Part shown: one piece after another, positions 81-41,371 of the stretch
How the letters are laid out: each line of letters starts with the position of its first letter
Numbering within the stretch: the stretch's first letter is position 1
Source of the DNA: Methylomonas koyamae
Lineage (GTDB): Bacteria > Pseudomonadota > Gammaproteobacteria > Methylococcales > Methylomonadaceae
DNA: 64,000 nucleotides
Reading direction: 5' to 3'
Assembly: GCF_019669905.1 (NCBI RefSeq)
Contig: NZ_AP019777.1
Span: 2,170,001 to 2,234,000, forward strand
Position numbers and translations under genes: made by a program
The notes under the pieces: generated by a model
What the model was told of the DNA's origin: nothing
Databases searched by the model: none
What the model saw: only the letters and a program-made list of their open reading frames with translations

Positions 81-443
81 GTGGCAACGATTCTTGCCGT
101 AGACGATTCGGCATCGATGAGACAAATGGTGGCGTTTACCTTGAAGGGGGCTGGCTTCAGCGTGGTGGAGGCCGTCGATGGTGTGGACGCTTTGAATAAA
201 GCCAAGGCACAGGCTTTCGATTGTGTGGTGACCGACGTCAATATGCCGAACAAAGACGGAATCGAATTGATCAGGGAATTGCGCGCGCTGCCCAACTACA
301 AATTCACGCCGATGCTGATGTTAACCACCGAGGCCGGCGCGGATAAAAAACAACAGGGCAAGGATGCCGGCGCCACCGGATGGATCGTTAAGCCGTTCAA
401 TCCCGACCAGTTGCTGAAAACGATCAAGAAGGTAATGGGTTAA
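81..443 (+). CDS. cheY: CheY-type chemotaxis response regulator
   Basis: Single receiver domain of 120 residues with no output domain, the form that carries phosphoryl signals from CheA to the motor or another target. The acidic pair D8-D9 (VDDS), the phosphoacceptor D52 in TDVNMP, the switch Thr in MLTTEA and the Lys in VKPF are all present. I chose the GTG at 81 because TGGAGGAA lies just upstream at 67-74; a TTG at 66 would overlap that site. It is the first complete gene of a long chemotaxis operon and sits 40 bases before cheA. It closely resembles the receiver protein at 41003. Confidence 0.93.
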   Translation: MATILAVDDSASMRQMVAFTLKGAGFSVVEAVDGVDALNKAKAQAFDCVVTDVNMPNKDGIELIRELRALPNYKFTPMLMLTTEAGADKKQQGKDAGATGWIVKPFNPDQLLKTIKKVMG

Positions 444-483: not shown

Positions 484-2565
484 ATGACAATCGATATGGC
501 GCAATTCCATCAGGTGTTCTTCGAGGAAAGTTTCGAAGGGCTGGATGCGATGGAATCCGGTTTGCTGCACATGGATATCGGCGACGTCGACGCCGAGGAT
601 ATCAACACGATCTTTCGCGCCGCCCATTCGATAAAAGGTGGGAGCGGAACATTCGGCTTTACCGCGGTTTCGGATTTTACCCACGTCATGGAGACCTTGC
701 TCGACGAGATGCGGGACGGCCGGCGCAAGGTTACCCAGCCGGCCGTCGATGTTTTGCTCGGCTCGGTGGATTGTTTACGCGACATGTTGCAGTCCATCCG
801 CGACGGCGCGGAAATCGATCAAGCCACCGTCTCGGCGCACAAGTTGGCGCTGGACAATGAATTGCATAATCCCGGTGCCGAGACGAAGCCTGTCGCCGTG
901 GCAGAGCCGTCGTCCGCCCGCCAGGCAGTGTCGAGCGATGCTGGCGAAGCATTGGAAATCAGCGGCTGGACGATCGCATTCAGCCCGCATCTGCATCTAC
1001 TGAAAACCGGTAACGAACCGGTCAGGATGTTCAGAGAGTTGGCCGCTTTGGGGGAGTTGACGACCACGGTCGATTTACAAGGCTTGCCCAGCTTGTACGA
1101 TCTCGATCCGGAAGAATGCCATCTGTCATGGAAATTGCAGGTGTCCGGAAATATTCCGGCCGGGGAAATCGACGAGATATTCGATTGGGTCGAAGACGAC
1201 TGCGATTTGGCCAAACAGCCGAGCTATCGGGCGAACCGGCCGGCGGCGGCACCTGCGCAAGAAACGCATGGAACCGGCAGCGCTGCGGCCGATGCGGTTC
1301 CGGCAACTCAATCTGCAGAAAACGCAGCCGAAATCGAGAACCAGCCAACGGATGCGAAACCGGCTAAAAAGGAAGAGGCTAAAGCCGCCGGCAAAGGTTC
1401 CAGTTCGATTCGGGTCGATACCGCCAAGATCGACACCTTAATCAATATGGTCGGCGAATTAGTGATTACCCAATCGATGCTGAGCTTGTTGGGCGACCAT
1501 TTCGAGATGAACAAGCTCGACCAGTTAAAAAACGGCCTGTCGCAGTTGGAACGCCATACCCGCGAGCTGCAGGAAAGCGTGATGAATATCCGGATGTTGC
1601 CGATCAGCTTCGTGTTCAGCCGCTTCCCGCGCTTGGCGCATGATATTAGCGCTAAGCTCGGTAAAAAAATCGAGCTGAAACTGGTTGGCGAGAATACCGA
1701 AGTGGATAAAACCGTGGTGGAGTTACTGAGCGATCCGTTGGTACACCTGGTTCGCAACAGTCTGGACCATGGCATCGAGCTGCCCGAAGTCCGCATCGCG
1801 GCCGGTAAGCCGGAAACCGGCACCGTTACGCTGGAGGCCTACCACCGCGGCGGCAACATCGTGATAGAAGTATCGGACGACGGCAAAGGATTGGATAAAG
1901 ACAAGTTACGCGCCAAAGCCATTGAGAAAGGCTTGATCGATGCCGACGCCGTGCTGACCGAGAAACAAACCTACGAATTGATCTTCATGCCCGGCTTTTC
2001 GACGGCGGAAAAATTGACCGATATTTCCGGCCGCGGCGTCGGTATGGATGTGGTGCGGCGCAACATTCTGGCTTTGGGCGGCGATATCGAAATTTTATCC
2101 GAGTTGGGAAAGGGCTCGACCATTGCCATCCACTTGCCGCTGACGCTGGCGATCTTGGACGGCCAATCGATTGCCGTGGGTGACGAAACCTACATATTGC
2201 CGCTGGGCTCGATCATCGAATCGTTGCATATCAAGGAGGATAGGATTAACCGGGTGGCCGGCAAAGGCGAAGCCTTTTTGCTGCGTGGCCAATACCTGCC
2301 TATCGTCCGCATCCACGAGATTTTCAAAGTGCCAGGCGCCAAAACCACCAAGTTGACGGAAGGCCTGATCGTCGTCGTCGAAGGCCAAGGCGTACGCTGC
2401 GGCTTGTTTGTCGACGATTTACTCGGCCAGCAGCAAGTGGTGATCAAATCGCTCGAAGCCAATTACCGGCGTATCGAAGGCGTCTCCGGCGCGACCATCT
2501 TGGGCGACGGTTCGGTGGCGTTGATCCTGGATATACCGGGTTTGGTGCGCCTGGCTAACCAATAA
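484..2565 (+). CDS. cheA: Chemotaxis histidine kinase CheA
   Basis: Class II histidine kinase of 693 residues that phosphorylates CheY and CheB under receptor control. It has an N-terminal HPt domain with the phosphoacceptor H48 in AAHSIKGGSGTFGF. A second folded module at about residues 155-240 ends in DPEECHLSWKL...VEDDCDL, and a Glu/Ala/Lys-rich linker follows. Next come the dimerisation helices, an ATPase domain (N box LVRNSLDHG, G boxes SDDGKGLD and GRGVGMDV) and a C-terminal CheW-like domain. It is flanked by cheY and cheW in one operon. All catalytic motifs look intact. A second, longer CheA lies at 41734. Confidence 0.95.
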   Translation: MTIDMAQFHQVFFEESFEGLDAMESGLLHMDIGDVDAEDINTIFRAAHSIKGGSGTFGFTAVSDFTHVMETLLDEMRDGRRKVTQPAVDVLLGSVDCLRDMLQSIRDGAEIDQATVSAHKLALDNELHNPGAETKPVAVAEPSSARQAVSSDAGEALEISGWTIAFSPHLHLLKTGNEPVRMFRELAALGELTTTVDLQGLPSLYDLDPEECHLSWKLQVSGNIPAGEIDEIFDWVEDDCDLAKQPSYRANRPAAAPAQETHGTGSAAADAVPATQSAENAAEIENQPTDAKPAKKEEAKAAGKGSSSIRVDTAKIDTLINMVGELVITQSMLSLLGDHFEMNKLDQLKNGLSQLERHTRELQESVMNIRMLPISFVFSRFPRLAHDISAKLGKKIELKLVGENTEVDKTVVELLSDPLVHLVRNSLDHGIELPEVRIAAGKPETGTVTLEAYHRGGNIVIEVSDDGKGLDKDKLRAKAIEKGLIDADAVLTEKQTYELIFMPGFSTAEKLTDISGRGVGMDVVRRNILALGGDIEILSELGKGSTIAIHLPLTLAILDGQSIAVGDETYILPLGSIIESLHIKEDRINRVAGKGEAFLLRGQYLPIVRIHEIFKVPGAKTTKLTEGLIVVVEGQGVRCGLFVDDLLGQQQVVIKSLEANYRRIEGVSGATILGDGSVALILDIPGLVRLANQ

Positions 2566-3139: not shown

Positions 3140-5488
3140 ATGAAACTCAATCACCCTGTGACTGATCGCGAAGTTCTGATGAAGCCGGGTACCATTTTGG
3201 TCACCCGTACCAATCTGAAAGGCGTCATTACCTATGCCAACGATGCATTTATAGAGATCAGCGGCTTTAGCAAGGACGAACTGATCGGCTCCAACCATAA
3301 CGTTGTCCGCCATCCGGACATGCCGTCCGCCGCTTTTGCCGATTTGTGGATGTGTTTGAAGAACGGCAAGCCCTGGACCGCTCCGGTCAAGAATCGCACC
3401 AAATCCGGCGATTATTATTGGGTGGAAGCCAATGTCACGCCGGTATTCAAAAACGGCAAAGTGCAGGAATATCTGTCGGTACGCTATGCGCCGTCGCGAG
3501 AGCAAATTGCTCAGGCCGAGTCGCTTTACGAAAAGCTCAATGCCAACAAGGCCAGCATGCGCCCGAAAGGCTTGGTGGCAGCTATTAAAAAAATTTCGGA
3601 AATCGGGTTTTGGAAAAAAGTCGCAATTATCTATCTGATCTTCCTGCTACCGACCTTAAACTCCATCTACGGCCACTATGTCGAGCAAAAGTATTTGGAG
3701 ATGTCCTTGTTTTTGGGGCTTGCTACCTTTGCTTCGGTAATGGGATATATGCTAATCAACAGTGTCATTAATGCATTTGAGAAGGCGATAGGTATTTGCT
3801 ACCGGATGGCCGATGAGCAGTTTCGCAACTCTATCGATCTGGATCGCGGCGACGAAATTGGCGATTTCTATCGGGCGTTGTACGGTATGCAGGTAAAACT
3901 GAATTCCGATTTGGCCTTCTCCAAACAAGTCGCCTCCGAAGCGATGCGGATCAAGCAAGCGCTGGATAATGTGCAATCCTGCGTGATGGTCGCCAATAAC
4001 GATTTGGACATCATTTACATGAATAAAACCGTGTCGGAGATGTTTCAAAATGCACAGCAAGATATTCGCAAACAATTGCCGAAATTCGATGCCAGTAACC
4101 TGCTGGGCGCCAATATCGACCAATTCCACAAAAATCCGGGCCATCAGCGCCAACTGCTGGCAAATCTGAACGCCACCTTCAGCTCGGCGCTGGTGATCGG
4201 CGACAGGCACATGAATATCGTTGCCAATCCGGTCAGAAACGACGAAAAAGAGCGCATCGGCGTCGTGGTCGAGTGGTTGGACCGGACCCACGAAGTGAAA
4301 ATCGAACAGGAAATTGCCGGTATCGTCGAGGCCGTGAAGGCCGGCGAATTGTCGAGCAGGATCGAACTGGCCGACAAACGCGGCTTTTTCGAAAAACTCA
4401 GCGAGGGCATCAACGAACTGACCGATGTGATCGAAAACGTGTTTCGCGATATCGGCAGTACCATGCAAAGCATGGCCGCGGGGGATCTGACCAACCGGAT
4501 TACCAGCGAATACGAGGGCGTCTATTTGAATTGCAAAAATGATATCAATGCCACCATCGATAAACTGAACGAAATCTTCGGCCAGGTCAGCGAGTCGGCT
4601 CACTTCATTAACAATTCTTCGCAAGAGATTGCCAGCGGAAACAATAATTTATCGCAACGTGCCGAGCAGCAGGCGGCCAATCTGGAACAAACCGCGGCGA
4701 GCATGGAAGAGCTGACCAGTACGGTGAAAAACAATGCCGACAACGCCCAGCAAGCGAATTTGGTGGCCAACAACGCCAAGGAGTTGGCGGAAAAGGGCGG
4801 CAATGTCGTCAAAGCGGCCGTCTCGGCGATGCAGGAAATCAACGAAAGCAGCAACAAAATCGCCGACATTATCGGCGTGATAGACGAGATCGCATTCCAG
4901 ACCAATTTGCTGGCATTGAACGCTTCGGTGGAAGCGGCCCGCGCCGGCGAACAAGGTCGAGGCTTCTCCGTGGTTGCTACCGAGGTCAGAAATCTGGCGC
5001 AGCGCAGCGCGACCGCCGCCAGAGAAAGTAAGGAATTAATTCAGAACAGTGTGCAAAAGGTTAGGGCCGGTACCGAGTTCGTCAACGAAACCGGTAAGGC
5101 GTTGACCGAAATCGTCGCCGGCGTTAAGAAAGTCGGCGACATTGTGGCCCAAATCGCTGACGCCAGCGTCGAGCAGTCTGCCGGCATCGGTCAAGTCAAC
5201 CAAGCCGTAGCGCAGATGGACGAAATCACCCAGCAAAATGCCGCGTTGGCCGAAGAAGCCTCGGCGGCCAGTATATCCATGAGCGATTTGTCCACCAATA
5301 TGGTGGAAATGCTGGCGTTTTTTAAGACCGAGAACAATGCCGGCCAACATCCGGTCGCGCAGCGCGGGCACGCTGCCGGCGCGATGCGAACGGAGCCGGC
5401 TCGCACCGTTTCGGCTCCGGTATCCAATAGCCAACCGGCATTTGTCGCGAGATCGAACGATATGGACGACGAATGGCAGGATTTTTGA
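3140..5488 (+). CDS. Aer-like PAS-domain methyl-accepting chemotaxis protein
   Basis: Receptor of 782 residues. The N-terminal PAS domain (about 10-125) has the Aer-type stretch VVRHPDMPSAAFADLW...KPWTAPVKNR, which in Aer homologues binds FAD and senses redox state or oxygen. Two membrane helices (about 159-178 and 186-206) are joined by a short loop, so sensing is probably cytoplasmic. A HAMP region, a second PAS-like segment (about 265-390), another HAMP-like region and the signalling hairpin ([28 protein letters not shown]) follow. The last five residues, EWQDF, fit the xWxxF tether by which CheR and CheB bind receptors; cheR and cheB are in the same operon. The start ATG follows GGAGG. 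Confidence 0.93.
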   Translation: MKLNHPVTDREVLMKPGTILVTRTNLKGVITYANDAFIEISGFSKDELIGSNHNVVRHPDMPSAAFADLWMCLKNGKPWTAPVKNRTKSGDYYWVEANVTPVFKNGKVQEYLSVRYAPSREQIAQAESLYEKLNANKASMRPKGLVAAIKKISEIGFWKKVAIIYLIFLLPTLNSIYGHYVEQKYLEMSLFLGLATFASVMGYMLINSVINAFEKAIGICYRMADEQFRNSIDLDRGDEIGDFYRALYGMQVKLNSDLAFSKQVASEAMRIKQALDNVQSCVMVANNDLDIIYMNKTVSEMFQNAQQDIRKQLPKFDASNLLGANIDQFHKNPGHQRQLLANLNATFSSALVIGDRHMNIVANPVRNDEKERIGVVVEWLDRTHEVKIEQEIAGIVEAVKAGELSSRIELADKRGFFEKLSEGINELTDVIENVFRDIGSTMQSMAAGDLTNRITSEYEGVYLNCKNDINATIDKLNEIFGQVSESAHFINNSSQEIASGNNNLSQRAEQQAANLEQTAASMEELTSTVKNNADNAQQANLVANNAKELAEKGGNVVKAAVSAMQEINESSNKIADIIGVIDEIAFQTNLLALNASVEAARAGEQGRGFSVVATEVRNLAQRSATAARESKELIQNSVQKVRAGTEFVNETGKALTEIVAGVKKVGDIVAQIADASVEQSAGIGQVNQAVAQMDEITQQNAALAEEASAASISMSDLSTNMVEMLAFFKTENNAGQHPVAQRGHAAGAMRTEPARTVSAPVSNSQPAFVARSNDMDDEWQDF

Positions 5489-6009: not shown

Positions 6010-6767
6010 AGGCGAAAATCATAGCCGTGCTGAATCAAAAAGGCGGCGTCGGGAAAACCACGACCTCGGTGAATCTGACCCACGCCTTGGCCAGGATGGG
6101 CAAAACGGTGACGGTAATCGATTTGGATCCGCAAAGCCATTTGGCGGTATCCCTCGGAGTCGTTGCGCCGCAGCAGGGCGGTATCGACGAAGTCATGCTG
6201 GCCGATTGCGGGTTGCAGGGCCGGTTGTTACCAGTAAGAAAGAATCTGAATCTAGTCGTTTCCGGACCGCGCTTGCAAGAAATCGAACAACTCAGCGAAG
6301 GCGGTTCCTGCCGCGGCGATTTACTGAAAAAGGCTTTGGTGTCGTGCCTGTTGGATCAGGATTTCGTTTTTATCGACTGTCCGCCGTCTTCCGGCGTGCT
6401 GGTGGCCAATGCCTTGTTCGCCGCCGACGAGATTTTGATTCCGATGACCTCCGACTATCTGGTGCTGCAGGGCTTGTCGCATTTAATGGGGACTATCAAG
6501 AAATTCGAAGCCGCATTGAAACGGCAATATCGATTCTCGCTGGTGATGTCCCGCTACATTCCGACGCGGCGCTTGTCCAGAGAGGTATTGGAATTGGTCA
6601 AAAGCTATTTTCCCGGCAAAGTACTGGCGACACCGATCCGCGAGACCGCGTTGCTGGCCGAATGCCCGAGTTTTGGCAAGACTATTTTTGAGTATCGTCC
6701 AGGCTGTCGCTCGGCGCGGGATTTCACCGAACTGGCCAAGGACTTTTTGGAAAATAGGGTGATGTAA
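6006..6767 (+). CDS. ParA-family ATPase of the chemotaxis operon
   Basis: Deviant Walker-A ATPase of 253 residues: KGGVGKTT at the N terminus, then the DLDPQSHLAVSLGV segment and FIDCPPSSG. No ParB is nearby, and the gene is embedded between cheW and a STAS gene. It is therefore more likely a positioning ATPase for chemotaxis arrays (as known for ParC of Vibrio and PpfA of Rhodobacter) than a plasmid partition protein. It overlaps cheW by four bases and shares one base with the next start (TAATG). The partner that would anchor it to the array is not evident; the STAS protein at 6767 is a candidate. Confidence 0.85.
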   Translation: MKAKIIAVLNQKGGVGKTTTSVNLTHALARMGKTVTVIDLDPQSHLAVSLGVVAPQQGGIDEVMLADCGLQGRLLPVRKNLNLVVSGPRLQEIEQLSEGGSCRGDLLKKALVSCLLDQDFVFIDCPPSSGVLVANALFAADEILIPMTSDYLVLQGLSHLMGTIKKFEAALKRQYRFSLVMSRYIPTRRLSREVLELVKSYFPGKVLATPIRETALLAECPSFGKTIFEYRPGCRSARDFTELAKDFLENRVM

Positions 6768-7273
6768 TGGCTGAGAACGGCGAGAACAGTTTAATTGGCT
6801 ACGATCCGCTGGCCTGGATGAAGGCTGACGCTGGCGGCGAGCCAAGCGGCGTACCGGTGCCGGCTGTCGAGCCAGCCGGCAACATCGCATTGGAGCCGCA
6901 GTTACCGGATGGCGCCGGTAATGCCGATGCCGATGCAGAGTCCGTAGACTCAGCATCCGAGCCTGAGCCCCAGGCGGTCGGCAAAGGGACAGTGGTGTTG
7001 GAGCCTTTATCCAATATTCAGGGTGTCGCCAGCTTGCACCATACGTTGATGCAGATGTTGAACCAGTATGACGCGCTGGATATCGATGCTTCAGCGGTTA
7101 CCAGCATCGATACCTCGACGCTGCAATTGTTGGTGGTGTTGAAATGTACCGCCGCCGGTTTACAAAAGGTGGTGGCGATCGATTTTCCGTCCGAGAAATT
7201 TGTCGAGGCTGCGCAGTTACTGGGCGTGTCGGAAATGCTGGAAGTCGATGCAGCCGTGTCCGGCTTTTTTTAA
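6767..7273 (+). CDS. STAS-domain protein with long acidic N-terminal region
   Basis: Protein of 168 residues. The C-terminal 85 residues have a STAS (anti-sigma-factor antagonist) pattern, including ALDIDASAVTSIDTSTLQLLVVL with Ser/Thr at the usual phospho-site region. The first 80 residues are Ala/Pro/Glu-rich and probably disordered, apart from a hydrophobic patch, LIGYDPLAWM, at positions 9-18 that looks like a docking motif. It starts at TAATG directly on the ParA-like stop, so the two proteins probably work together. It ends in Phe-Phe. No RsbW-type kinase is near, so the partner is unknown. Confidence 0.75.
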   Translation: MAENGENSLIGYDPLAWMKADAGGEPSGVPVPAVEPAGNIALEPQLPDGAGNADADAESVDSASEPEPQAVGKGTVVLEPLSNIQGVASLHHTLMQMLNQYDALDIDASAVTSIDTSTLQLLVVLKCTAAGLQKVVAIDFPSEKFVEAAQLLGVSEMLEVDAAVSGFF

Positions 7274-7309: not shown

Positions 7310-8146
7310 ATGAAAGATAATATTCGCGAATTCGAATATACCCAGGCTGATTTCGATATTCTGCGAAAAATTTCCAATCAGCACTCGGGGATTTTGGTAC
7401 CGGACGATAAGTTCGATATGTTTTATTCCCGGCTGGCGAAGCGGCTTAGGTTATTGGGGCTGGCTAGCTTCAAGGAATATTGCCAATATTTAACCGACCA
7501 TCCCGCCGATGAATTTACCGAATTCATCAATTCCGTCACGACCAACCTGACTTCGTTCTTTCGGGAAAACCACCATTTCGAATATTTGACTGAAACGGTG
7601 GTGCCGGAGCTGTTGAAAAAGAAGGCTGCGGTAAGGCAGGTCAAAATCTGGTCGGCCGGGTGTTCGACCGGGGAGGAGCCTTACTCGTTGGCGATGGCGT
7701 TGAAGGAGAGTCTGCCGGCCGGTTGGGACCTGAAAATATTGGCCACCGATCTCGACACCAATGTGTTGGCAACGGCGGCCAATGGCGTTTACAGTGCCGA
7801 TCGCGCCGCCGGCATTTCCGAGCAACGGCTGAAGCGCTGGTTTCAAAAAGGCCGCGGACGGCAAGCAAACAAGGTCAGAGTCAAGCCGGAATTGCGCGCG
7901 GCGGTCACGTTCAGACAACTGAACCTGATGCGGGACTGGCCGATGCGCGGCCGTTTCGATGTCATCTTTTGTCGAAACGTGCTGATTTACTTCGACCGGC
8001 AAACCAAAACCAAGCTCGCCGAACGCTATGCCAGCCTGCTCGAAACCGGCGGCTATCTTTTTATCGGCCATTCCGAATCGCTGCATCAGCTCGATACGGC
8101 CTTCGAACCCATCGGAAACACCATTTACCGGAAAACAGCCAAGTGA
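7310..8146 (+). CDS. cheR: Chemoreceptor glutamate methyltransferase CheR
   Basis: CheR of 278 residues: an N-terminal helical domain, then the SAM-binding motif SAGCSTGEEPYSLAM, ATDLDTNVL and the conserved FDVIFCRNVLIYFD. It adds methyl groups from S-adenosylmethionine to receptor glutamates during adaptation. The stop overlaps the GTG of cheD by four bases. The receptor at 3140 in the same operon ends in EWQDF, a likely CheR-binding tether. A second, divergent CheR is at 38803. Confidence 0.95.
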   Translation: MKDNIREFEYTQADFDILRKISNQHSGILVPDDKFDMFYSRLAKRLRLLGLASFKEYCQYLTDHPADEFTEFINSVTTNLTSFFRENHHFEYLTETVVPELLKKKAAVRQVKIWSAGCSTGEEPYSLAMALKESLPAGWDLKILATDLDTNVLATAANGVYSADRAAGISEQRLKRWFQKGRGRQANKVRVKPELRAAVTFRQLNLMRDWPMRGRFDVIFCRNVLIYFDRQTKTKLAERYASLLETGGYLFIGHSESLHQLDTAFEPIGNTIYRKTAK

Positions 8147-8781
8147 GTCTGACTCATACTTTAGTAAAACCGCCTATCGCCGGGTTCGAGGGGGTCAACC
8201 GCTACTGGGACCAAGAGAACCAAATCGTCGCCGCGAAATTGATGCCGGGCGACTATTACGTCACTAGCCAGGATGAAATGATCACGACGGTGCTCGGTTC
8301 CTGCGTCGCCGCTTGCATTCGCGATTGCGAAACCGGAATCGGCGGCATGAACCATTTCATGTTGCCGGAAACCAGCGATAGCCGGTTGAGCGCCCGCGAT
8401 GAGGCTGTAGTGGGTAATGCATTGCGCTACGGCAACTATGCGATGGAGCACCTGATCAATACCATTCTGCAAAACGGCGGTAAACGGAAAAACCTGGAGG
8501 TCAAGTTGTTCGGCGGCGGCAAGATCATCGCTTCGCTGAGCAATGTCGGCGCCCGCAATGTGAAATTCGTCTTGGATTATGTCGATACCGAGGCGTTGAA
8601 GCTGGTTTCTCACGACTTGGGAGATATTTATCCGCGCAAAGTCAATTTCTTTCCGCGTAGCGGCCGCGTCAGAATGAAAAAGATCAAGGATCTGCATAAC
8701 CAGACCATTTTCTTGCGCGAGAAACAATACAGTTACAGCATCAAGGACGCGCCGGTCGAAGGCAGCGTCGAGTTGTTTTAG
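8143..8781 (+). CDS. cheD: Chemoreceptor glutamine deamidase CheD
   Basis: CheD of 212 residues with the catalytic Cys54 in GSCVAACIRD and His71 in GGMNHFML. It deamidates specific receptor glutamines. I chose the GTG at 8143, which overlaps the cheR stop (GTGA); the frame is open further upstream, but only inside cheR. The final residues, GSVELF, are acidic and end in Leu-Phe. The same kind of tail is found on the proteins at 9855, 14252 and 39771, which is unusual for CheD and may mark a common partner. A second cheD at 38210 lacks this tail. Confidence 0.93.
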   Translation: MSLTHTLVKPPIAGFEGVNRYWDQENQIVAAKLMPGDYYVTSQDEMITTVLGSCVAACIRDCETGIGGMNHFMLPETSDSRLSARDEAVVGNALRYGNYAMEHLINTILQNGGKRKNLEVKLFGGGKIIASLSNVGARNVKFVLDYVDTEALKLVSHDLGDIYPRKVNFFPRSGRVRMKKIKDLHNQTIFLREKQYSYSIKDAPVEGSVELF

Positions 8782-8789
8782 GAGCGGGA

Positions 8790-9848
8790 GTGGCAAAAAT
8801 AAAACTACTGATCGTCGACGACTCGGCTCTGATCCGGCAGATGTTGACGCAGATATGTAACCAAGCGGACGATATCGAAGTGGTCGGCACTGCCGGCGAT
8901 CCGTTGATTGCCCGCGATAAAATCAAGACCTTAAATCCCGACGTGCTGACGTTGGACGTGGAAATGCCGCGCATGGACGGGCTGACCTTTCTACGGAACC
9001 TGATGCGCCTGCGGCCGATGCCGGTCGTGATGATTTCGACCTTGACCGAAAAAGGCGCCGAGGTGACGTTGGAGGCTTTGGCGCTGGGAGCGGTGGATTT
9101 CGTGGCCAAGCCCAAAGTCGACGTATCGCAAGGCTTGAAGGCTTACGCGGACGAAATCGTCGGCAAAATCCGCATGGCCGCCCAGGCCAAGGTCAAGGCT
9201 CTGGAAACGCCTAAAGCCCAGGCAATAACCCGTCAGCCGGAAGGCTCGGCACACACCGTTATGAAGAAACATTTTAAGACCACCCACAAAATCGTCGCAC
9301 TCGGTTCGTCCACCGGCGGTACCGAAGCGGTCAAGCAATTGGTACGGACTTTGCCGCGGACCGCGCCGGCGATCGTTATCGCTCAGCATTTGCCGTTAGC
9401 GTTCAGCGCTTCGTTCGCCAAGCACGTCAACGATGCCACCGAAATGGCAGTGGCTTTGGCTGAAGACGGACAGCCGATATTGCCGGGCCACGTTTACATC
9501 GCGCCGGGCGACCGCCACTTCCTGGTTGCCCGCGACGGCGCCCGCTACATGTGCCGGCTGGACGACGGTCCGCCGGTGAATCGGCATAAACCGTCGGTCG
9601 AGGTTTTGTTCCGCTCCGTAGCGCAGAACGTCGGCGGTAATGCGATCGGCGTAATGCTGACCGGAATGGGCGCCGACGGCGCGAAGGCGATGGTGGAAAT
9701 GCGCGATGCCGGCGCCGTCAATATTGTGCAGGACGAGGCTTCCAGCGTGGTGTGGGGTATGCCCGGCGAAGCCTTCAGGCTGGGGGCCGCGCATCATGTG
9801 TTATCCTTGGACAAAATCGCGGAAAAAATTTTGGTGTTGGCGGAATAG
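8790..9848 (+). CDS. cheB: Chemoreceptor methylesterase CheB
   Basis: Two-domain protein of 352 residues: a receiver domain (D10-D11, phosphoacceptor D56 in TLDVEMPRMDG) joined to a methylesterase domain. The catalytic residues S174 (GSSTGG), H200 (IAQHLP) and D296 (GMGADGA) have the same spacing as in E. coli CheB. It removes methyl groups, and deamidates, when phosphorylated by CheA. The start is GTG at 8790 with GGAG at 8781-8784, overlapping the end of cheD. This is the only cheB in the window, so it may also serve the second cluster, which has none. Confidence 0.95.
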   Translation: MAKIKLLIVDDSALIRQMLTQICNQADDIEVVGTAGDPLIARDKIKTLNPDVLTLDVEMPRMDGLTFLRNLMRLRPMPVVMISTLTEKGAEVTLEALALGAVDFVAKPKVDVSQGLKAYADEIVGKIRMAAQAKVKALETPKAQAITRQPEGSAHTVMKKHFKTTHKIVALGSSTGGTEAVKQLVRTLPRTAPAIVIAQHLPLAFSASFAKHVNDATEMAVALAEDGQPILPGHVYIAPGDRHFLVARDGARYMCRLDDGPPVNRHKPSVEVLFRSVAQNVGGNAIGVMLTGMGADGAKAMVEMRDAGAVNIVQDEASSVVWGMPGEAFRLGAAHHVLSLDKIAEKILVLAE

Positions 9849-9854
9849 ATTCAT

Positions 9855-11057
9855 ATGGTGCAGTTCTTGAAAGATAACGGCGTGTTAGTCGGTTTGACCG
9901 GTATGGTGCTGATGCTGCCGTTATTCTTTGCCGATACCCGGATTTATTGGGGAGCGAGCGCGTTGCTCAGCCTGCTGTGGATGTTCCGCACCTTTCGCGC
10001 GCAAACCGTTTCCACGCTGGGGAAAACCGGGCAAACCGAGCGGTATGAAGTGGATATGACCAGAGCGGTCGATAGTTATCTGGGGCATCTGGCGGAGTGT
10101 ATCGAACAGGAAAGCAACCGCTTCCGGGCCGAGTTGGAACAATTGAAGTCGATGCTGGCCGATGCCGTCAGGACCATGTCCAACAGTTTCAATAGTTTGC
10201 ATGCCTTGGCCAGCGGACAATCGGACGTGGTTGGTTCGTTGGTGTCGGATCTGGAGGACAGCGTCGAGCAGGATAGCCAGGCGATCAATTTCACCCGATT
10301 TACCCACGAAACCGACAAGGTGCTGCAATTCTTCATCGACCATATCCTGCAAATCAGCAAGCAGAGCGTGGAGATGGTCGCGGTGATCAACGACGTCGGC
10401 GAGCATATGGCCCATGTCGAAAAACTGTTGGGTGACGTGCAGAAGATCGCCGACCAGACCAATCTGCTGGCCTTGAATGCGGCGATTGAGGCGGCGCGGG
10501 CCGGCGAAGCCGGCCGGGGCTTTGCCGTCGTGGCCGGCGAGGTGCGTAACCTATCGAAAAATTCCGATAAGTTCAGCGAAGAAATCAAGGTGGTGGTCAA
10601 GGCTTCCAAGGACAACATCCGCGAAGCGCAAAACATGATCGAAGTCATGGCGTCGAAGGACATGAACGTGGCGATCAGTTCTAAAGCCAATATCGACAAG
10701 ATGATGGACGACATTGCCGTCATCAATGCCAACATCGCCAAAAACGTGGCCGAGATTTCCCAGATGACCGGCCAGATCGAAATCAGCGTCGGCAATGCCG
10801 TCAGAGGGTTGCAGTTCGAAGATATGGCTCGCCAGTTGATCGAACACATGCAGGCTAATCTGGAACATTTCTCCGCGTTGAAAGACGAGGTCGCCATCGG
10901 CATGGCCATGTTCAAAACCGGCAACCGCGCGGATTGGCAAGCCCAACTGGGGCAGGGTGCCGACCGCTTGCGGCAGATGAAACAACAGTGGCAGATCGTT
11001 AAATCCCGCGTCGTCTCGCAATCGTCGATGGACGAGGGCGATGTGGATTTATTTTAA
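9855..11057 (+). CDS. Membrane receptor-like protein with CheZ-like C-terminal helix
   Basis: Protein of 400 residues with two closely spaced N-terminal membrane helices (about 9-25 and 31-45) and almost no periplasmic part. A long coiled-coil contains the receptor hairpin [20 protein letters not shown] (about 200-218). There is no HAMP or sensor domain. After the hairpin the sequence leaves the usual receptor pattern and reads [14 protein letters not shown] with D323-x3-Q327, the spacing of the CheZ catalytic Asp/Gln. A linker and an acidic tail, DEGDVDLF, follow; E. coli CheZ also ends in an acidic, Phe-terminated CheY-binding peptide. A role as a membrane-anchored CheY phosphatase or array component is inference. 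It lies seven bases after cheB. Confidence 0.85.
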
Positions 11058-11097: not shown

Positions 11098-11397
11098 ATG
11101 GGGATTGACGCAAGAGTGGACTCGGGCGTGTTACATATCAAAGTCAGCGGAAAATTCGATTTCGGCGTGCATAACGAATTCCGGGAAGCCATCAAATTGG
11201 CCGAAACCGGCTTAAAACAAATAGAAGTCGATTTGGCGGGCACCGATTATATGGACAGTTCGGCGCTAGGCATGCTGTTGGTGCTGCGCGATAAAATCGG
11301 CGGCGACAAAACGGCGATACGGATAAAAAATGCCCGCGCCGAAGTAAAAAAGATTCTGGAAATCGCCAATTTCGATAAACTGTTTTCTTTGCTTTAA
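11098..11397 (+). CDS. STAS-domain protein (anti-sigma-factor antagonist family)
   Basis: Small protein of 99 residues that is all STAS domain: VDSGVLHIKVSGKFDF at the N terminus and VDLAGTDYMDSSALGMLLVL, where the Ser pair marks the family's phosphorylation loop. GAGGAGG precedes the ATG. It closes the first chemotaxis operon, right after the receptor-like gene. The similarly placed STAS gene at 41405 stands between cheY and cheA. No matching anti-sigma kinase is visible, so it may act within the chemosensory system. Confidence 0.88.
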   Translation: MGIDARVDSGVLHIKVSGKFDFGVHNEFREAIKLAETGLKQIEVDLAGTDYMDSSALGMLLVLRDKIGGDKTAIRIKNARAEVKKILEIANFDKLFSLL

Positions 11398-11460
11398 GCC
11401 GTCACTTTTGCCCGCCCGCCAGTTGGGTACCGGTTCTTGCCGGACCTTTGTCAGCCCGCC

Positions 11461-12561
11461 ATGAACCAGTACAGCAACCATTCCAGTTATAGCGTCGTCC
11501 GCCATTTTTTTCGGCGTTTTTTTCCCGATTCGCAAGTCGCCGCATTAGCAATCATATTACTGGGCGGATTTTTATTGATATACAGCCTGCTCGGGCTGTT
11601 GATGCCGGTATTCGTCGCGGTCGTGTTGGCCTATCTGTTGGAAGGCTTGGTCGCCAAATTGGAAATGCGCGGCGTGGCCCGCCTGATCGCGGTCCATCTG
11701 GTGTTTTTTGCCTTTATGGCGGCGCTGGGCTTCGTATTGTTCGTGTTGGTGCCCATGGTATCGGAACAAACCGTGCAACTGGTGCAACATATACCGGAAA
11801 TCGTGTCCAGAACCCAGGCGGAAATCATGCGTTTTCCGGAACGCCATCCCGAGTTGATTTCGGAAACCCGGATTCGGGAAATCATGTTCACGATCCAGCA
11901 GGATTTGCTCAAATACGGCCAGGATCTGATTTCCGGCTCCGCCCAGTCCTTCGTCGGTTTGGTGGCCGTTGTGATTTATCTGTTTCTGGTGCCGTTGATG
12001 GTGTTTTTCTTTTTGAAAGACAAACGGCTGCTATTGGGCTGGATGCTGCAGTTCCTGCCTTCGGACACCAGCTTGAGCCTGCGGGTCTGGCAGGAAGTCG
12101 ACAAACAAATCTCCAACTACGTGCGCGGCAAGTTTGTCGAAGTGTTCATCTTGTGGGCGATCAGCTATCTGGTGTTTTGGTGGCTGGGTTTGAATTACGC
12201 CATGTTGCTGGCGGTGTTGATGGGCCTGTCGGTCGTGATCCCTTACGTCGGCGCAACCTTGGTCACTTTTCCGGTACTTGGCGTGGCCTACGTGCAATGG
12301 GGCGTCGGCGGCGGCGACCAGTTCATGTACGTGTTCATCGCCTACTCGGTGATTCAGGCGCTGGACGGCGTGATATTGGTGCCGTTACTGTTTTCCGAGG
12401 CGGTGAATTTGCATCCGGTGGCGATCATCGTCGCTATCTTGTTCTTCGGCGGCCTGTGGGGATTCTGGGGCGTGTTTTTCGCAATTCCGTTGGCCACGCT
12501 GGTTAAAGCCGTGTTAACCGCGTGGCCGCGCTGGGAAGCGAACGGAACCTTGGCCGGATAG
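11461..12561 (+). CDS. AI-2E family permease (PerM/TqsA-like)
   Basis: Integral membrane protein of about 366 residues with N-terminal helices (ALAIILLGGFLLIYSLLGLL and onwards), a central amphipathic region (about 105-160), then further membrane segments including FFLKDKRLLLGWM and the GLSVVIPYVGATLVTFPVL stretch typical of the family. Members export small molecules or act as antiporters; the substrate here cannot be told. No good ribosome site precedes either ATG 11461 or TTG 11437, so the start is uncertain. It converges on the PhoH gene with one base between the stops. Confidence 0.88.
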   Translation: MNQYSNHSSYSVVRHFFRRFFPDSQVAALAIILLGGFLLIYSLLGLLMPVFVAVVLAYLLEGLVAKLEMRGVARLIAVHLVFFAFMAALGFVLFVLVPMVSEQTVQLVQHIPEIVSRTQAEIMRFPERHPELISETRIREIMFTIQQDLLKYGQDLISGSAQSFVGLVAVVIYLFLVPLMVFFFLKDKRLLLGWMLQFLPSDTSLSLRVWQEVDKQISNYVRGKFVEVFILWAISYLVFWWLGLNYAMLLAVLMGLSVVIPYVGATLVTFPVLGVAYVQWGVGGGDQFMYVFIAYSVIQALDGVILVPLLFSEAVNLHPVAIIVAILFFGGLWGFWGVFFAIPLATLVKAVLTAWPRWEANGTLAG

Positions 12562-12562
12562 C

Positions 12563-13975
12563 TTACAAATTGTCCGAGGCGAAATCGGCCAAGCGCGAAC
12601 GTTCGCCGCGGCGCAGAGTAATGTGTGCGCTGTTCGGCCAGTTTTTGAAGCGGTCCACCACGTAGGTCAGGCCGGAACTGGTCGCGGTCAGGTAAGGCGT
12701 ATCGATCTGCGCCAGATTGCCGATGCAGATGATTTTGGTACCCGGCCCGGCCCGGGTGATCAGAGTTTTCAATTGCTTGGGCGTCAGGTTTTGCGCTTCG
12801 TCGATAATCAGATAGCGGTTCAGGAAAGTACGGCCGCGCATGAAATTCAGCGAGCGGATTTTTACCCGGTTCATCACGACGTTTTGCGACGCGCCTTGCT
12901 CCCATTCGGTGTTGCCGGCCCGGCTGCCCAGCAGTTCCAGGTTGTCCATCAGCGCGCCCATCCAGGGTGCCATTTTTTCTTCTTCGCTGCCCGGTAAAAA
13001 GCCGATGTCCTGGCCGACCGGCATGGTTTCGCGGGTCATGATGATTTCCTGGTACAGCTTCCGCTCCAAGGTCAGCGACAGGCCGGCCGCCAACGCCAGC
13101 AGGGTTTTGCCGGTACCGGCCGAGCCGATCAGGGTCACGAAATCCACGTCCGGGTCCATCAACGCATTCAATGCAAAATTCTGTTCCCGGTTTTTGGCGA
13201 AAATGCCCCAGATGTTGTTGTGTTTGCTGCGGAAGTCTCTCGCCAATTGCAGTACCGCGGTCTCGCCTTCGCAGCTTTTGACGATGGCCTCGAAGTTATC
13301 CTCGCCCTCCATGTACAGGTATTGGTTCGGATACCATTCGCTGACCGCCGGTCCGCTGATCCGGTAGTAAGTGTTGTTGTTATCCTGCCAGGACTCCATC
13401 TTGCCGCCGTTTTCGTCCCAGAAATCGGCATCCAGCGCCAGGCTGCCGCTGTAAAGCAGGTCGATGTCTTCGATGGTCTGGTCGTTGTGGTAATCCTCGG
13501 CGTTGATTTGCAGCGCGGCGGCTTTGATGCGCATATTGATGTCTTTCGACACCAAAATCACGTTGACGTCCGGATATTCCTTGCTCAGAGCCAGCATGAT
13601 GCTGAGGATGGAATTGTCGGCGATTTGGCCCGGCAGGTCGGCCGGTAACAGATGCGACAACTGCCGGGTTTGGAAAAACAGGCGGCCGTCGAATTCGCGC
13701 TCGCCGGCCAACCCGTGTTCGATGCGCGACAGCGGCAGGCCGTCCTTGATCGATTGCTGGTCGGCGTCGCGGATCAATTCGTCCAAAAACCGGCTGACTT
13801 GGCGAACGTTGCGCGAGACGTCGGACAGGCCTTTCTTGGCGTGGTCCAGTTCTTCTAACACCACCATCGGGATAAATACGTTGTGCTCCTGAAACCGGAA
13901 AATCGACGTCGGATCGTGCATTAACACGTTGGTGTCCAGGACGAACAATTTTTTGCCGGCGGATTGTATATTCAT
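12563..13975 (-). CDS. PIN-PhoH protein (YlaK-type RNA-linked ATPase)
   Basis: Protein of 470 residues. The N-terminal PIN nuclease-like domain (KLFVLDTNVLMHDP, residues 10-23, with further acidic residues up to about 150) is followed by a PhoH ATPase domain. That domain has Walker A GSAGTGKTLLALAAG, the MTRETMPVGQDIGFLPGS segment and Walker B RYLIIDEAQNLTP. Homologues couple ATP hydrolysis to RNA unwinding and cleavage. The expected catalytic aspartates of the PIN domain are present at the start. It is transcribed alone, opposite to its neighbours. Confidence 0.93.
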   Translation of the reverse strand: MNIQSAGKKLFVLDTNVLMHDPTSIFRFQEHNVFIPMVVLEELDHAKKGLSDVSRNVRQVSRFLDELIRDADQQSIKDGLPLSRIEHGLAGEREFDGRLFFQTRQLSHLLPADLPGQIADNSILSIMLALSKEYPDVNVILVSKDINMRIKAAALQINAEDYHNDQTIEDIDLLYSGSLALDADFWDENGGKMESWQDNNNTYYRISGPAVSEWYPNQYLYMEGEDNFEAIVKSCEGETAVLQLARDFRSKHNNIWGIFAKNREQNFALNALMDPDVDFVTLIGSAGTGKTLLALAAGLSLTLERKLYQEIIMTRETMPVGQDIGFLPGSEEEKMAPWMGALMDNLELLGSRAGNTEWEQGASQNVVMNRVKIRSLNFMRGRTFLNRYLIIDEAQNLTPKQLKTLITRAGPGTKIICIGNLAQIDTPYLTATSSGLTYVVDRFKNWPNSAHITLRRGERSRLADFASDNL

Positions 13976-14251: not shown

Positions 14252-14791
14252 ATGAACTATTCAGCATCAAACCATCCCGATTTGGATTGGAGCCAAATCA
14301 GGGAGACGATCAAGTTGTTGACCGTGTCGGTGGCCCAAGTCGAAGGCAGCATCAAAGACGGCGACGAATCGGTCAACGAGTTGGCCAGCACGTTTACGCT
14401 GATGGTCGACGACATGCAGAAAATTCAGGAGTTCTTGGCCCGAGTAGCTCCGGACGAGGCAAATTCGGCGGCGCTGGGCTATTGCGAATCGATGCAGGAC
14501 AAGATCAACCAGGCGATCGTGGCGTTTCAGTTTTACGACCGGATGCAGCAATGCCTACAGCATGTGTCGAATAACCTGAAGGGCTTGTCCGAGATTATCG
14601 ATACCCCGCATCGGCTCTACAACCCGATGGAGTGGCACAAATTCCAGGAAAGCATTCGTAGCCGTTACACGATGGAGTCGGAAAAAGTCATGTTCGACGC
14701 CATCCACCAGGGTAAGAGTATCGAAGAGGCGTTGCAGTTGTTTGCACAGGCAAACCGGCAGGGCAGCCCCGACGAAATCGAACTGTTTTAA
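14252..14791 (+). CDS. Soluble helical protein with CheZ-like D-x3-Q motif
   Basis: Protein of 179 residues, predicted all-helical, with no membrane segment or signal peptide. Residues 91-105 read AFQFYDRMQQCLQHV; D96 and Q100 have the Asp-x3-Gln spacing of the CheZ active site. An extended segment with RSRYTMESE (about 136-144) and a tail ending DEIELF follow, comparable to the acidic, Phe-ending CheY-binding end of CheZ. The membrane protein at 39771 shares [12 protein letters not shown], a YTMPEE segment and a similar tail. I infer a CheY-phosphatase-like or array-binding role. The start ATG 14252 is chosen because homology-like sequence begins there; the frame is open upstream without support. 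A TATAAT lies at 14153-14158. Confidence 0.8.
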   Translation: MNYSASNHPDLDWSQIRETIKLLTVSVAQVEGSIKDGDESVNELASTFTLMVDDMQKIQEFLARVAPDEANSAALGYCESMQDKINQAIVAFQFYDRMQQCLQHVSNNLKGLSEIIDTPHRLYNPMEWHKFQESIRSRYTMESEKVMFDAIHQGKSIEEALQLFAQANRQGSPDEIELF

Positions 14792-15577: not shown

Positions 15578-17488
15578 GTGAGTGAACTGGCCGAAGTGTT
15601 TGGTAGCGATGGCGCTTTGGCCGGCGTCATCGCCGGTTACTCGCCGCGTGCGGCCCAGATCGAGATGGCGGAAAAGATCGCCTACGCCATCGAATCGCAA
15701 CAAAACTTGATCGCCGAGGCCGGCACCGGGACCGGCAAGACCTTTGCCTACCTGATTCCCGCCATCCTGTCCGGCAAACGCGTGATCGTTTCGACCGGCA
15801 CCAAAAATCTGCAAGACCAATTGTTCAACAAAGACCTGCCGCTGATTCGCAAAGCCTTGGCCAAGCGGCCCTTCAAAGCCAGCTTGTTGAAAGGCCGCGC
15901 CAATTATTTGTGCACCTACCGTTTGGAACAGGCGCTGAATGCCGCCTTCGGTTACAGCCGCGAAGAGGCGACGGCGTTGGCGCAAATCAAAACCTGGTCC
16001 AAGCGCACCAAAACCGGCGACGTTTCCGAAGCGGCCGACGTGCACGACGGCGATCCGGTCTGGTTTCACGCCACGTCGACCACCGACAACTGTCTTGGGC
16101 AAAACTGCCCGGACTACGCCGATTGCTTCCTGACCAAGGCTCGCAAACAGGCGCAGGAGGCCGATATCGTGGTCGTTAATCATCACCTGTTGTGTGCCGA
16201 TTGGTCGATCCGCGAAACCGGCTTCGGCGAGCTGCTGCCGGATGCCGAAGTCGTCGTCATCGACGAAGCCCATCAACTGGCCGACACTGCGTCCAATTTT
16301 TTGGGCGTGACGATTAGCGGCAAACAACTGGTCGATTTGGCCGACGACAGCCTGGCCGAGTATTTCACCGACGCCAAGGATATGCCGGACTTGCGCACCG
16401 CCTGCGAGGACCTGCAACACGAAGTCAAGGATTTGCGCTTGGCGTTTGGCCTGGAATTGCGCCGTGGCGACTGGCAGGACATTGAAACCAACCCCAAGAT
16501 CGCCGGCGCGTTGGAATCCTTGCAAAAACAATTGGCGCGACTGACCGATCAACTGGAACGCGCCTCGGTGCGCAGCAAAGGCCTGGAATCCTGCTTCGAC
16601 CGAGCCGAAGCGCTGGACGCGCAACTGGAAACGCTGATCAACGATAAGGACGGTCAGTGGATCAAATGGTACGAGACCTACAGCAAGTCGTTTACGTTAA
16701 GCCGGACGCCGCTGGATATCGCCAAGGAATTTCGCGGCTTCATGGCCCGGCATAAAGCCACCTGGATTTTTACTTCGGCGACCTTGAGCGTGGCCAATAA
16801 CTTCGTGCATTTTTCCAAAAGTCTGGGCCTGAGCGGTGCGCTGAGCCAAAGCTGGGACAGTCCGTTCGATTACCCGAATCAAGCGTTGTTTTATCACCCG
16901 AAAGGTTTGCCGCAGCCCAGCGATCCGGAATTTACCGACAAAATTGTCGAGTTCGCTTTGCCGGTGCTGGAAGCCAGCCGGGGCAGGGCGTTTTTCCTGT
17001 TCACCAGCCACCGCGCCTTGCAGCGTGCCGCGCAGTTACTGGAAGGCAAGCTCGACCACCCGCTGTTGGTGCAAGGTACCAAGTCCAAAGGCGTGTTGCT
17101 GGACCAGTTCAAGGAGCTCGGCAATGCGGTGCTGTTGGCCACCGCCAGCTTTTGGGAAGGCGTCGATGTGCGCGGCGATGCGTTGTCTTGCGTGATTATT
17201 GACAAGCTGCCGTTTGCATCGCCGGGCGATCCGGTATTGAAAGCGCGAATGAACGCGATGGAAAAACAGGGCCGCAACCCGTTTTTCGAACACCAACTGC
17301 CCAGCGCCATCATTATGCTGCGCCAGGGCGTGGGCCGGCTGATCCGCGACGTCAACGACCGCGGCGTATTGATGGTTTGCGATCCGCGCTTGTTGAAACG
17401 CTCCTACGGCCAAATGTTTCTGGATAGCGTGCCGGCCATGAAACGTAGCCGCGATATCGCCGACGTCCGCCAATTTTTTGCATCATGA
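15578..17488 (+). CDS. yoaA: ATP-dependent helicase, YoaA/DinG (XPD-like) family
   Basis: Superfamily 2 helicase of 636 residues with Walker A AGTGTGKTFAYLIP, the DEAH box VVIDEAHQL, and C-terminal motifs ATASFWEGVD and QGVGRLIRD. Four cysteines that would hold an iron-sulfur cluster are visible: one in RANYLCTYR and three in NCLGQNCPDYADC. Family members unwind DNA, and YoaA works with the polymerase III chi subunit in repair; the present role is by analogy. The start is GTG at 15578. The 3' end lies ten bases before tsaB. Confidence 0.93.
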   Translation: MSELAEVFGSDGALAGVIAGYSPRAAQIEMAEKIAYAIESQQNLIAEAGTGTGKTFAYLIPAILSGKRVIVSTGTKNLQDQLFNKDLPLIRKALAKRPFKASLLKGRANYLCTYRLEQALNAAFGYSREEATALAQIKTWSKRTKTGDVSEAADVHDGDPVWFHATSTTDNCLGQNCPDYADCFLTKARKQAQEADIVVVNHHLLCADWSIRETGFGELLPDAEVVVIDEAHQLADTASNFLGVTISGKQLVDLADDSLAEYFTDAKDMPDLRTACEDLQHEVKDLRLAFGLELRRGDWQDIETNPKIAGALESLQKQLARLTDQLERASVRSKGLESCFDRAEALDAQLETLINDKDGQWIKWYETYSKSFTLSRTPLDIAKEFRGFMARHKATWIFTSATLSVANNFVHFSKSLGLSGALSQSWDSPFDYPNQALFYHPKGLPQPSDPEFTDKIVEFALPVLEASRGRAFFLFTSHRALQRAAQLLEGKLDHPLLVQGTKSKGVLLDQFKELGNAVLLATASFWEGVDVRGDALSCVIIDKLPFASPGDPVLKARMNAMEKQGRNPFFEHQLPSAIIMLRQGVGRLIRDVNDRGVLMVCDPRLLKRSYGQMFLDSVPAMKRSRDIADVRQFFAS

Positions 17489-39770: not shown

Positions 39771-40982
39771 ATGTCTGGTACAACAAGCGGCCCAACCATC
39801 AAAGATATCGATACACGCGCTTACTACGGATTAACGGTGGGCCTGGGATTGGCGGGCGGCTTATTGGCAGCTGCATTGGCCGGTTTCAGCCTGGCCAGCG
39901 TGCTGGGCGCGGTGGTGTTAGTACTGGCCGGGGCTCTGGCCGGTTCGGTCTTGGCCGCTAAGCAACAAGCGGCGTTAAACGACGTAAACCGGGCGTGGCG
40001 CGGCGACGAAGAGGTCAAGCTCAAAGACCTCGAAGCTTACGTGGTCGAATTGGAGCGATTGTTTTTACAGGTGGTGCCGATCCTGCTACGCCAAGTGCAG
40101 ACCTCGCGCACCCATACCGAGCAGGAAATTACCGTGTTAACCGACCGTTTCGCGGCGATGGTTACCCAACTGGAGCGTTTGCTTGCCGGCGGCAGCCGCC
40201 ACCGCGAAGACCGGGGTGTCGACGTGTTATTCAACGAAACCCGGGAAGCGTTAACCACGGTATTGCGGGTATTGAGCCAAATTCAAGACGTCGAGCACGC
40301 CGTGGTCGATGAGGTCAGAAAATTATCCACCCATACCAAACAACTGGATTCGATGGCGCAAGAAGTGCGTAAGGTCGCCGAACAAATCAATTTGTTGGCC
40401 TTGAACGCCGCGATCGAAGCCGCCCGCGCCGGGGAAAATGGCCGCGGCTTTGCCGTTGTGGCCGACGAAGTGCGCAAATTGGCCGGCTTTTCGTCGGCAA
40501 CCGGCGAAAAGATCAGCCGGGCGATCGAAGGCATCAATTTGGCGATGGCCTCGACGCTGAAAATGTCCGAAGCGTCCGGCACTTCGGACGACAAAGCCAT
40601 CCGCGACGCCGAGCAGGCGATTCGCACCGCACTCGACGATCTGCATAAAGCGTTGGATATGTTCAAAGACGATGCCGACAATCTGCGCGGCAACAGCGCG
40701 CAGATTCGCGACGAGATTTACAGCGTGCTGACTGCGTTTCAATTTCAAGACCGCGTCAGCCAGATGCTGTCCCACGTCGAACACAACTTGAACAATTTGC
40801 AGCGTGCGGTGGATGCGATCAGAACCGCCGGAGTCCGCCATGCCGATAGCCTGGATGTTAGCGAGACTTTATCCAGAATGGAACTTAGCTACACGATGCC
40901 GGAGGAGTTGCTGAACCACTCGGCGTCCGCGGCGATTAACCGGCAAAGTTCCTCGGGCAGCGAAGAGATTACCTTTTTCTAA
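39771..40982 (+). CDS. Membrane receptor-like protein with CheZ-like C-terminal region
   Basis: Protein of 403 residues with two N-terminal membrane helices (about 18-40 and 43-63) and a coiled-coil body carrying the receptor hairpin [27 protein letters not shown] (about 204-230); the usual QTN is QIN here. No sensor or HAMP domain is present. Residues 321-340 read [20 protein letters not shown] with D327-x3-Q331, the spacing of the CheZ active site. After that come a YTMPEE segment and a tail ending SEEITFF. The overall plan equals the protein at 9855, and the end matches the free protein at 14252. It starts the second chemotaxis operon, 20 bases before cheY. Confidence 0.86.
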
Positions 40983-41002
40983 GATCTGTTAAGGAAGAAA
41001 CC

Positions 41003-41371
41003 ATGGCCAAAACCATCATGATTGTTGACGATTCGGCGTCGATCCGCCAAGTGGTCGGTATCGCCCTGAAGGGCGCCGGCTACGACGTGGTCGAGGCTTG
41101 CGACGGCAAAGACGCGCTGGCTAAATTGACCGGGCAAAAAATCAATCTGATTATTTCCGACGTCAACATGCCGAACATGGACGGCATTAGCCTGGTCCAG
41201 GAAATCAAAAAATTGGCGGCCTACAAGTTTACCCCGATCATGATGCTGACCACGGAAGCGGCCGACGATAAAAAACAAGCCGGTAAAGCCGCCGGCGCCA
41301 AGGCTTGGTTGACCAAGCCGTTTCAGGCGCCCACCTTGCTGGATGCCGTATCCAAATTGGTACTGCCTTAA
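41003..41371 (+). CDS. cheY: CheY-type response regulator
   Basis: Receiver domain of 122 residues with VDDSAS, the phosphoacceptor Asp in ISDVNMPNMDG, MLTTEA and TKPF. It is very similar to the CheY at 81 (both contain the KGAGYDVVEA or KGAGFSVVEA pattern and KFTPI/M-M-LTTEA). It lies between the CheZ-like membrane protein and a STAS gene, followed by cheA. GGAAG precedes the ATG. Confidence 0.94.
   Translation: MAKTIMIVDDSASIRQVVGIALKGAGYDVVEACDGKDALAKLTGQKINLIISDVNMPNMDGISLVQEIKKLAAYKFTPIMMLTTEAADDKKQAGKAAGAKAWLTKPFQAPTLLDAVSKLVLP

Follow-up and report, generated by a model that had tools for sequence, protein, structure and literature searches.

In CheZ of Escherichia coli, Q147 places a water molecule at the aspartyl-phosphate of CheY, and the catalytic Asp contacts the active-site lysine of CheY. 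The phosphatases CheC, CheX and FliY use a Glu/Asn pair instead of Asp/Gln. In proteobacterial CheZ, an AxxFQ segment next to DxxxQ is described as conserved in the available text of PMC7750401; among 45 CheZ proteins that we fetched, 40 carry AxxFQDxxxQ, and all 45 do if Phe or Tyr is allowed. For organisms at stages 1 and 2, the available text of Ortega et al. 2020 (PMC7184735) reports cheY in both chemotaxis clusters and cheZ in the F6 systems only, and calls the function of the F7 systems of these stages unclear.

We analyzed a stretch of 64,000 nucleotides from Methylomonas koyamae (hereafter the window; genome size 5.1 Mb), which contains an F7-type che operon and, downstream of it, a gene for a protein of 179 aa. 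We consider it probable, though with modest confidence, that this protein is a CheZ-like phosphatase for CheY (90-443) of the F7-type system just upstream.

The 179-aa protein and its surroundings in the window

The ATG-started open reading frame is a real gene: in 27 relatives the start codon is the same Met as in the query protein or lies at most one residue off. As the initial annotation described, the protein has 179 residues, the sequence AFQFYDRMQQ at residues 91-100 (including D96 and Q100) and the C-terminus DEIELF. It belongs to a large family without a name: a protein search with the query recovered 1707 relatives among 1732 scored, and a profile search with the family 4286 of 8000 scored. 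Among the matches listed, the nearest named relatives are from Methylomonas, and at least two relatives (P0004, P0035) are called 'chemotaxis protein' in UniRef. The Pfam search returned nothing over the cut-off, with weak matches including COG3_N and Baculo_PEP_C, and the NCBIfam search nothing but matches far under it. A single-sequence PDB search chiefly found designed PPR helices. The PDB profile matches (viral fusion proteins, designed helices) and the weak Pfam matches resemble coiled-coil noise, and an MCP chain appeared in the PDB profile search only at E 1.6. A search of viral contigs for the family gave zero matches, and among the matches listed from the titles and abstract starts of open-licence literature we found no publication on it.

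The F7-type operon extends from the cheY gene at position 90 through a STAS gene that ends at 11397, and has no gene of the query family inside. The 179-aa gene begins 2.9 kb past the end of the operon, behind a membrane-protein gene and phoH (Table 1). The assignment to F7 relies on the gene order in the available text of PMC7184735 and not on a tree of CheA. The window operon is similar in order to the stage 1 F7 system of that text, with two additional genes ahead of cheR, parA and a STAS gene, that are missing from the gene list there. parA occurs also in the operons of loci L158, L161 and L171. For the STAS protein encoded at 6767-7273, an N-terminal IGxDPLAW motif is seen in several relatives, and the two Methylomonas versions end in SGFF. 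MCP genes were seen in the window at 3140, 9855, 39771, 43986 and 47373; the D-x3-Q motif is found in those at 9855 and 39771 only.

The initial annotation placed the gene in a region with no ordinary cheZ. This holds for the window; the genome does contain an ordinary cheZ (PF04344, E 2.4e-70) at C1:545488-546099, 1.64 Mb away on the contig.

Table 1. Features of the window discussed in the text
Feature	Position	Strand	Remarks
Single-domain CheY, proposed substrate	90..443	+	Response_reg; open frame 54-443, 90 not an assigned start codon
CheA of the F7-type operon	484..2565	+	Domain search
PAS-HAMP MCP, occupying the place of the Aer2-like receptor	3140..5488	+	Domain search
ParA/MinD-type ATPase gene within the F7-type operon	6006-6767		
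STAS protein	6767..7273	+	Directly 5' of cheR in the window
CheR	7310..8146	+	Domain search
CheD, C-terminus GSVELF	8161..8781	+	Domain search; tail scan
CheB	8790..9848	+	Receiver domain from domain search; methylesterase part assigned from its position and by eye
MCP-like protein with LQFEDMARQ (D 10821-10823, Q 10833-10835), tail GDVDLF	9855..11057	+	Related module
Membrane-protein gene, PerM-like by eye	11437-12561		
PhoH	12563-13975		Neighbour of the 179-aa gene
CheZ-like protein gene	14252..14791	+	179 aa; no Pfam or NCBIfam match above cut-off
Candidate catalytic helix, residues 91-100 AFQFYDRMQQ (D96 14537-14539, Q100 14549-14551)	14522..14551	+	Invariant columns
Docking-type tail DEIELF, residues 174-179	14771..14788	+	F179 conserved; type also on F7-type CheD and MCP-like proteins
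Helicase (DinG-type)	15578-17488		Neighbour of the 179-aa gene
MCP-like protein with YTMPEE, tail EEITFF (D 40749-40751, Q 40761-40763)	39771..40982	+	Homologous module
Single-domain CheY directly 3' of the MCP-like gene	40940..41371	+	Open frame; domain 41015-41350

The invariant Asp/Gln pair and the C-terminal tail

Retention of D96 and Q100 among orthologues had been set beforehand as a test that could refute the proposal, and both residues are kept. In a set of 32 diverse sequences, comprising the query and 31 relatives 26-62% identical to it, just Q93, F94, D96 and Q100 are invariant; F92, Y95, H104, W128, G154, E177, F179 and a few other positions are at least 90% conserved. This set was chosen from the loci at hand, with near-duplicates dropped; it includes the members from L048, L057 and L062 and omits those from L069 and L071, both of which join a larger alignment through the longer stretches L178 and L180. 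This alignment has 255 rows, namely 254 sequences differing in the last 120 residues and the window protein a second time, mostly best-scoring matches and many from Methylococcales. D96 and Q100 are present in all 255 rows without exception, as are Q93 and F94, while A91 is found in 243 rows and Tyr at position 95 in 251. The member from genome G226 (L183) reads LQFADRLKQ, with Ala at position 95, and has no ELF tail. The query protein contains three D-x3-Q pairs, beginning at D83, D96 and D149, of which that at D96 is the invariant one; the choice of this pair by the initial annotation was more than chance.

A helical-wheel calculation places D96 and Q100 146 and 174 degrees off the hydrophobic face, and the catalytic Asp and Gln of CheZ 159 and 161 degrees off. 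A91 and F94 turn toward the hydrophobic face (6 and 54 degrees), as do their CheZ equivalents (19 and 41 degrees). With helicity predicted from sequence alone, all 255 rows would thus carry a D-x3-Q of the catalytic type on an exposed face of a helix.

The same residues could belong to the binding face of an output or sink adaptor that binds CheY~P and passes the signal on, with no phosphatase activity. Such a role would suit an F7 system of stage 1 or 2, whose function the available text of PMC7184735 leaves unclear, and the operon position fits it just as well. Nearer relatives, moreover, conserve a segment RLYNPxEW..IRxxYT behind the helix for which we found no CheZ counterpart. An adaptor role does not in itself account for an Asp/Gln pair, spaced by four residues on an exposed face, being kept without exception in 255 rows while most positions vary, and we regard this reading as unlikely, if the most serious of the rivals to a phosphatase.

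The initial annotation set the acidic, Phe-ended tail beside the CheY-binding peptide of CheZ. The tail does end in Phe, is mostly acidic and is conserved, with F179 a Phe in 253 of the 255 rows and a gap in the other two. Endings of the type acidic-[IVL]-x-[LF]F occur in 4 of 350 window frames (at least 80 aa, both strands): the 179-aa protein, the F7-type CheD (GSVELF) and the two MCP-like proteins. All 11 CheDs clustered at the examined loci of the family have G-x-[VI]-[DE]LF at the end or at most 5 residues off. CheDs from genomes without the family have [GDES]-x-[VI]-[DE]LF at the end or at most 2 residues off in 18 of 20 cases (sampled from 60 family-less CheD genomes, mostly high CheD scorers); of the remaining two, one has GDVTLF and one nothing similar. 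The second CheD of the window (38210-38806) is without an ELF-type tail. Because the tail is shared with the F7-type CheD, it is not evidence for a phosphatase, and since CheDs of family-less genomes have it, its partner is probably a core part of the system and not a family member. F7 CheY as this partner is a guess.

The tail type is common to the 179-aa protein, the MCP-like protein encoded in the operon and CheD, even CheD of family-less genomes. This would speak for a helical protein with a structural or localising role in the F7 array, anchored like CheD by its ELF tail to a common array component and lacking enzymatic activity. A pure anchor has no need of an invariant D-x3-Q, though, and the motif is unchanged at many loci where the stretch examined has no che cluster. 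A role as an array anchor therefore seems to us rather improbable.

Occurrence in F7-type operons and across genomes

Family members were called in 40 of the 41 loci examined, the window included; the exception is L156, where the gene caller gave no member, though the search had matched one there (L048). At 12 of the 40 loci the family gene is the immediate neighbour of cheR within an F7-type che operon, encoded with cheY, cheA, cheW, mcp, cheR, cheD and cheB; the window is not one of them. The operon type of the 12 is cheY-cheA-cheW-mcp-(parA)-STAS-X-cheR-cheD-cheB, where X is the family gene, and some are incomplete: a gene of the STAS cluster lies on the other side in 8, a clustered cheD is present in 8 and a gene of cheB size in line in 11. 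At one further locus the family gene follows cheA, which brings the loci with che genes to 13 of 40. Gene clusters at the loci were defined by BLAST, and Pfam domains were checked for the window operon and parts of two others. Many other loci show no che cluster in the stretch examined, and have an identical motif. The statement of the initial annotation that the gene stands outside the che operons is thus right for the window and does not extend to the relatives, which lie inside one at 12 of 40 loci.

A conserved small protein of ~160 aa (cluster c10) is encoded near five CheZ-less F7-type operons (L177:11115-11600, L180:10923-11462, L181:1470-2021, L182:4315-4797 and L183:2581-3048); at three of these loci it adjoins an additional small receiver gene. 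The MCPs in operons L158, L161, L170, L171, L177, L180 and L182 end in xWxEF, which we take to resemble the CheR/CheB-binding pentapeptide of E. coli receptors.

A phosphatase need not act on the F7 CheY. The genome has 111 receiver-domain matches, and the position of the gene outside the operon in the window would allow the CheY of the F6 system, a regulator of type IV pili or some other receiver of the genome as substrate. Receivers in open frames shorter than 150 aa number four: one beside cheZ (C1:544991), those at window positions 90 and 41015, and one at C1:4598310, the latter two 3' of MCP-like genes. Relatives inside the operon, together with the association with CheD, point instead to the F7-type system, and the CheY at C1:544991 already has the ordinary cheZ beside it; we give a different receiver little credence. 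A chance resemblance in an ordinary coiled-coil protein, whose acidic tail might resemble that of SSB and serve the DNA-repair neighbours PhoH and helicase, is very improbable and largely refuted by operon context, as the D-x3-Q motif is invariant and che genes recur at 13 of 40 loci. We rejected an SSB-like tail with a DNA-repair partner because the neighbours vary among genomes.

Free-standing members occur in 33 of 274 gammaproteobacterial genomes, taken one per species. Carriers were assigned by hand from free-standing frames, including a weak match in G226 (35 bits) and excluding the ~400-aa MCP-like matches and a weak match in G238. CheD is present in 32 of the 33 carriers and in 60 of the 241 other genomes, 92 of 274 overall (Fisher p 2.4e-16, phylogeny not corrected for). 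CheZ scores over the cut-off in 23 of 33 carriers and 92 of 241 others, and is absent in 7 of the 12 genomes with an in-operon family gene. In G191, G331, G204, G069, G222 and G226, FliM is present and searches for CheZ, CheX and CheC gave zero matches at E<=0.001. These six genomes are 94-100% complete, and three of them (G331, G069, G222) are from one family. Each has one CheA of ordinary size (frame 714-757 aa); five also show weak extra CheA-dimer matches, in frames whose size (1206-2223 aa) is Chp-like. The seventh CheZ-less in-operon genome, G292, has CheX and CheC matches. Of the 92 CheD genomes, 60 lack the family gene and 9 of those also lack CheZ, which means that such systems can dispense with the family gene.

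Homologous modules, proposed function and comparison with known systems

The family profile also matches MCP-like proteins of ~400 aa. An hhalign comparison of the query family with their C-terminal module gave 98.8% (E 1.4e-16), against 1.7 and 4.4% for reversed controls, with the motif, YTxxE segment and tail all aligned; the profiles thus argue firmly for homology between the 179-aa protein and this module. We surveyed 25 places (20 loci, L011, L014, L015 and the two in the window) and found an MCP-like protein in 24, with none in L210. The motif reads QFQD in 19 of the 24 (18 QFQDR, one QFQDT) and QFED in 5; FQDxxxQ is present in 19, and the full AxxFQDxxxQ in 6 and absent in 18. Among the 19 QFQD cases, 18 have a cheY-like frame 3' of the gene in the same orientation, at L219 after 287 bases and at L217 within a longer open frame; L204 is without one. 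None of the 5 QFED cases has an adjacent cheY-like frame. Sites that combine a QFQDxxxQ MCP-like gene with cheY are 39771-41371 in the window, L011, L014, L015, L205-L209, L211, L212, L215-L217, L219-L221 and L223. From sequence and gene order, it is possible that the QFQDxxxQ proteins encoded 5' of cheY are receptor-phosphatase fusions.

A profile match to CheZ, named in advance by the initial annotation as a check, did not materialize, and for sequence profiles this part of its test turned out negative. PF04344 did not match the 179-aa protein at E<=10, nor did PF04509 (CheC) or PF13690 (CheX), and CheZ is not among the matches listed (25 of 64 Pfam families) for 32 family members. Comparison of the family with CheZ by hhalign gave 0.5 and 3%, with scores (16.5 and 21.8) below the highest shuffle score of 31.9; a merged query and MCP-like profile gave 1.8%, no gain, and 80-column stretches around both motifs 1.4%. 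Direct homology to CheZ is therefore undetectable by sequence in these comparisons. The AxxFQ preceding the catalytic Asp is not found either, since Gln is replaced by Tyr in 251 of 255 rows despite A91 and F94.

The MCP-like module (22 sequences) comes closer, with 88 and 91% against CheZ and scores of 43 and 46, compared with at most 24.4 over 200 column shuffles and ~19 for reversed profiles. Seven of the 20 MCP-like loci give a weak match to the CheZ model, four of them also matched by the family profile. When the five of these that were in the profile and two others were omitted, the value dropped to 54% (score 33.8, reversed 20.3); the subtypes alone gave 10% (n=10) and 25% (n=5). These profile scores are suggestive of a link between the module and CheZ. 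A link between the query and CheZ is not shown by sequence, nor, given the missing profile match and AxxFQ, is membership in the CheZ family; the likeness may come from common descent or from convergence on the same chemistry.

The observed conservation, operon context, co-occurrence and module homology are most likely those of a protein that acts like CheZ on F7 CheY; what follows on fold, dimer, catalysis, substrate and tail partner we infer. An alpha-helical hairpin, probably dimeric, would expose D96 and Q100 on its second helix. Q100 would position the attacking water at the CheY aspartyl-phosphate and D96 would touch the active-site lysine of CheY, a chemistry taken over from the biochemistry of CheZ. 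The -EIELF tail may dock the protein on an F7 component, either CheY itself or the array. The homologous module, fused to MCP-like proteins beside their own CheY, would make a receptor carrying its own off-switch.

As to whether this is an unrecognised CheY phosphatase family, the retained Asp and Gln, the che operons, the six carriers with no CheZ, CheX or CheC match and the homology to MCP-like proteins speak for that suggestion; the missing CheZ profile match, the occurrence of the tail type on F7-type CheD and the ordinary cheZ of this genome speak against it. A broader proposal is offered tentatively and may well not hold as a whole: the family would be CheZ-like and serve F7 systems, being the sole candidate CheY phosphatase found in several FliM-containing gammaproteobacteria; the receptor-fused module may gate CheY dephosphorylation; and the common ELF tail would dock phosphatase, CheD and MCP-like protein on one partner. 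With a candidate phosphatase and two substitutable residues, signal termination in stage 1-2 F7 systems becomes testable. If the receptor-fused versions are active, the receptor itself could erase the signal, a form of control.

Several known proteins invite comparison. Like the query, the MCP-like proteins have a [FLM]QF[QE]DxxxQ helix and a Phe-ended C-terminus, and mostly in the QFQD form a YTxxE-like segment; unlike the free-standing query, they carry the module fused behind an MCP signalling domain. The F7-type CheD shares the x-x-[VI]-[DE]LF tail and the operon type; it differs in its deamidase domain and was unflagged in the D-x3-Q motif scan of the window. CheC, CheX and FliY have the same task as is proposed for the query. 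CheZ shares with it the D-x3-Q on an exposed helix face, the inward Ala at -5 and Phe at -2 (by helical wheel), the acidic Phe-ended C-terminus and the association with che genes. The query differs from CheZ in its 179-aa length, its NPxEW..IRxxYT segment, the Tyr in place of Gln before the Asp, the lack of a match to the CheZ profiles (Pfam or 45-sequence) and its tail, which is DEIELF where CheZ has the DDVDDLLSSLGF type.
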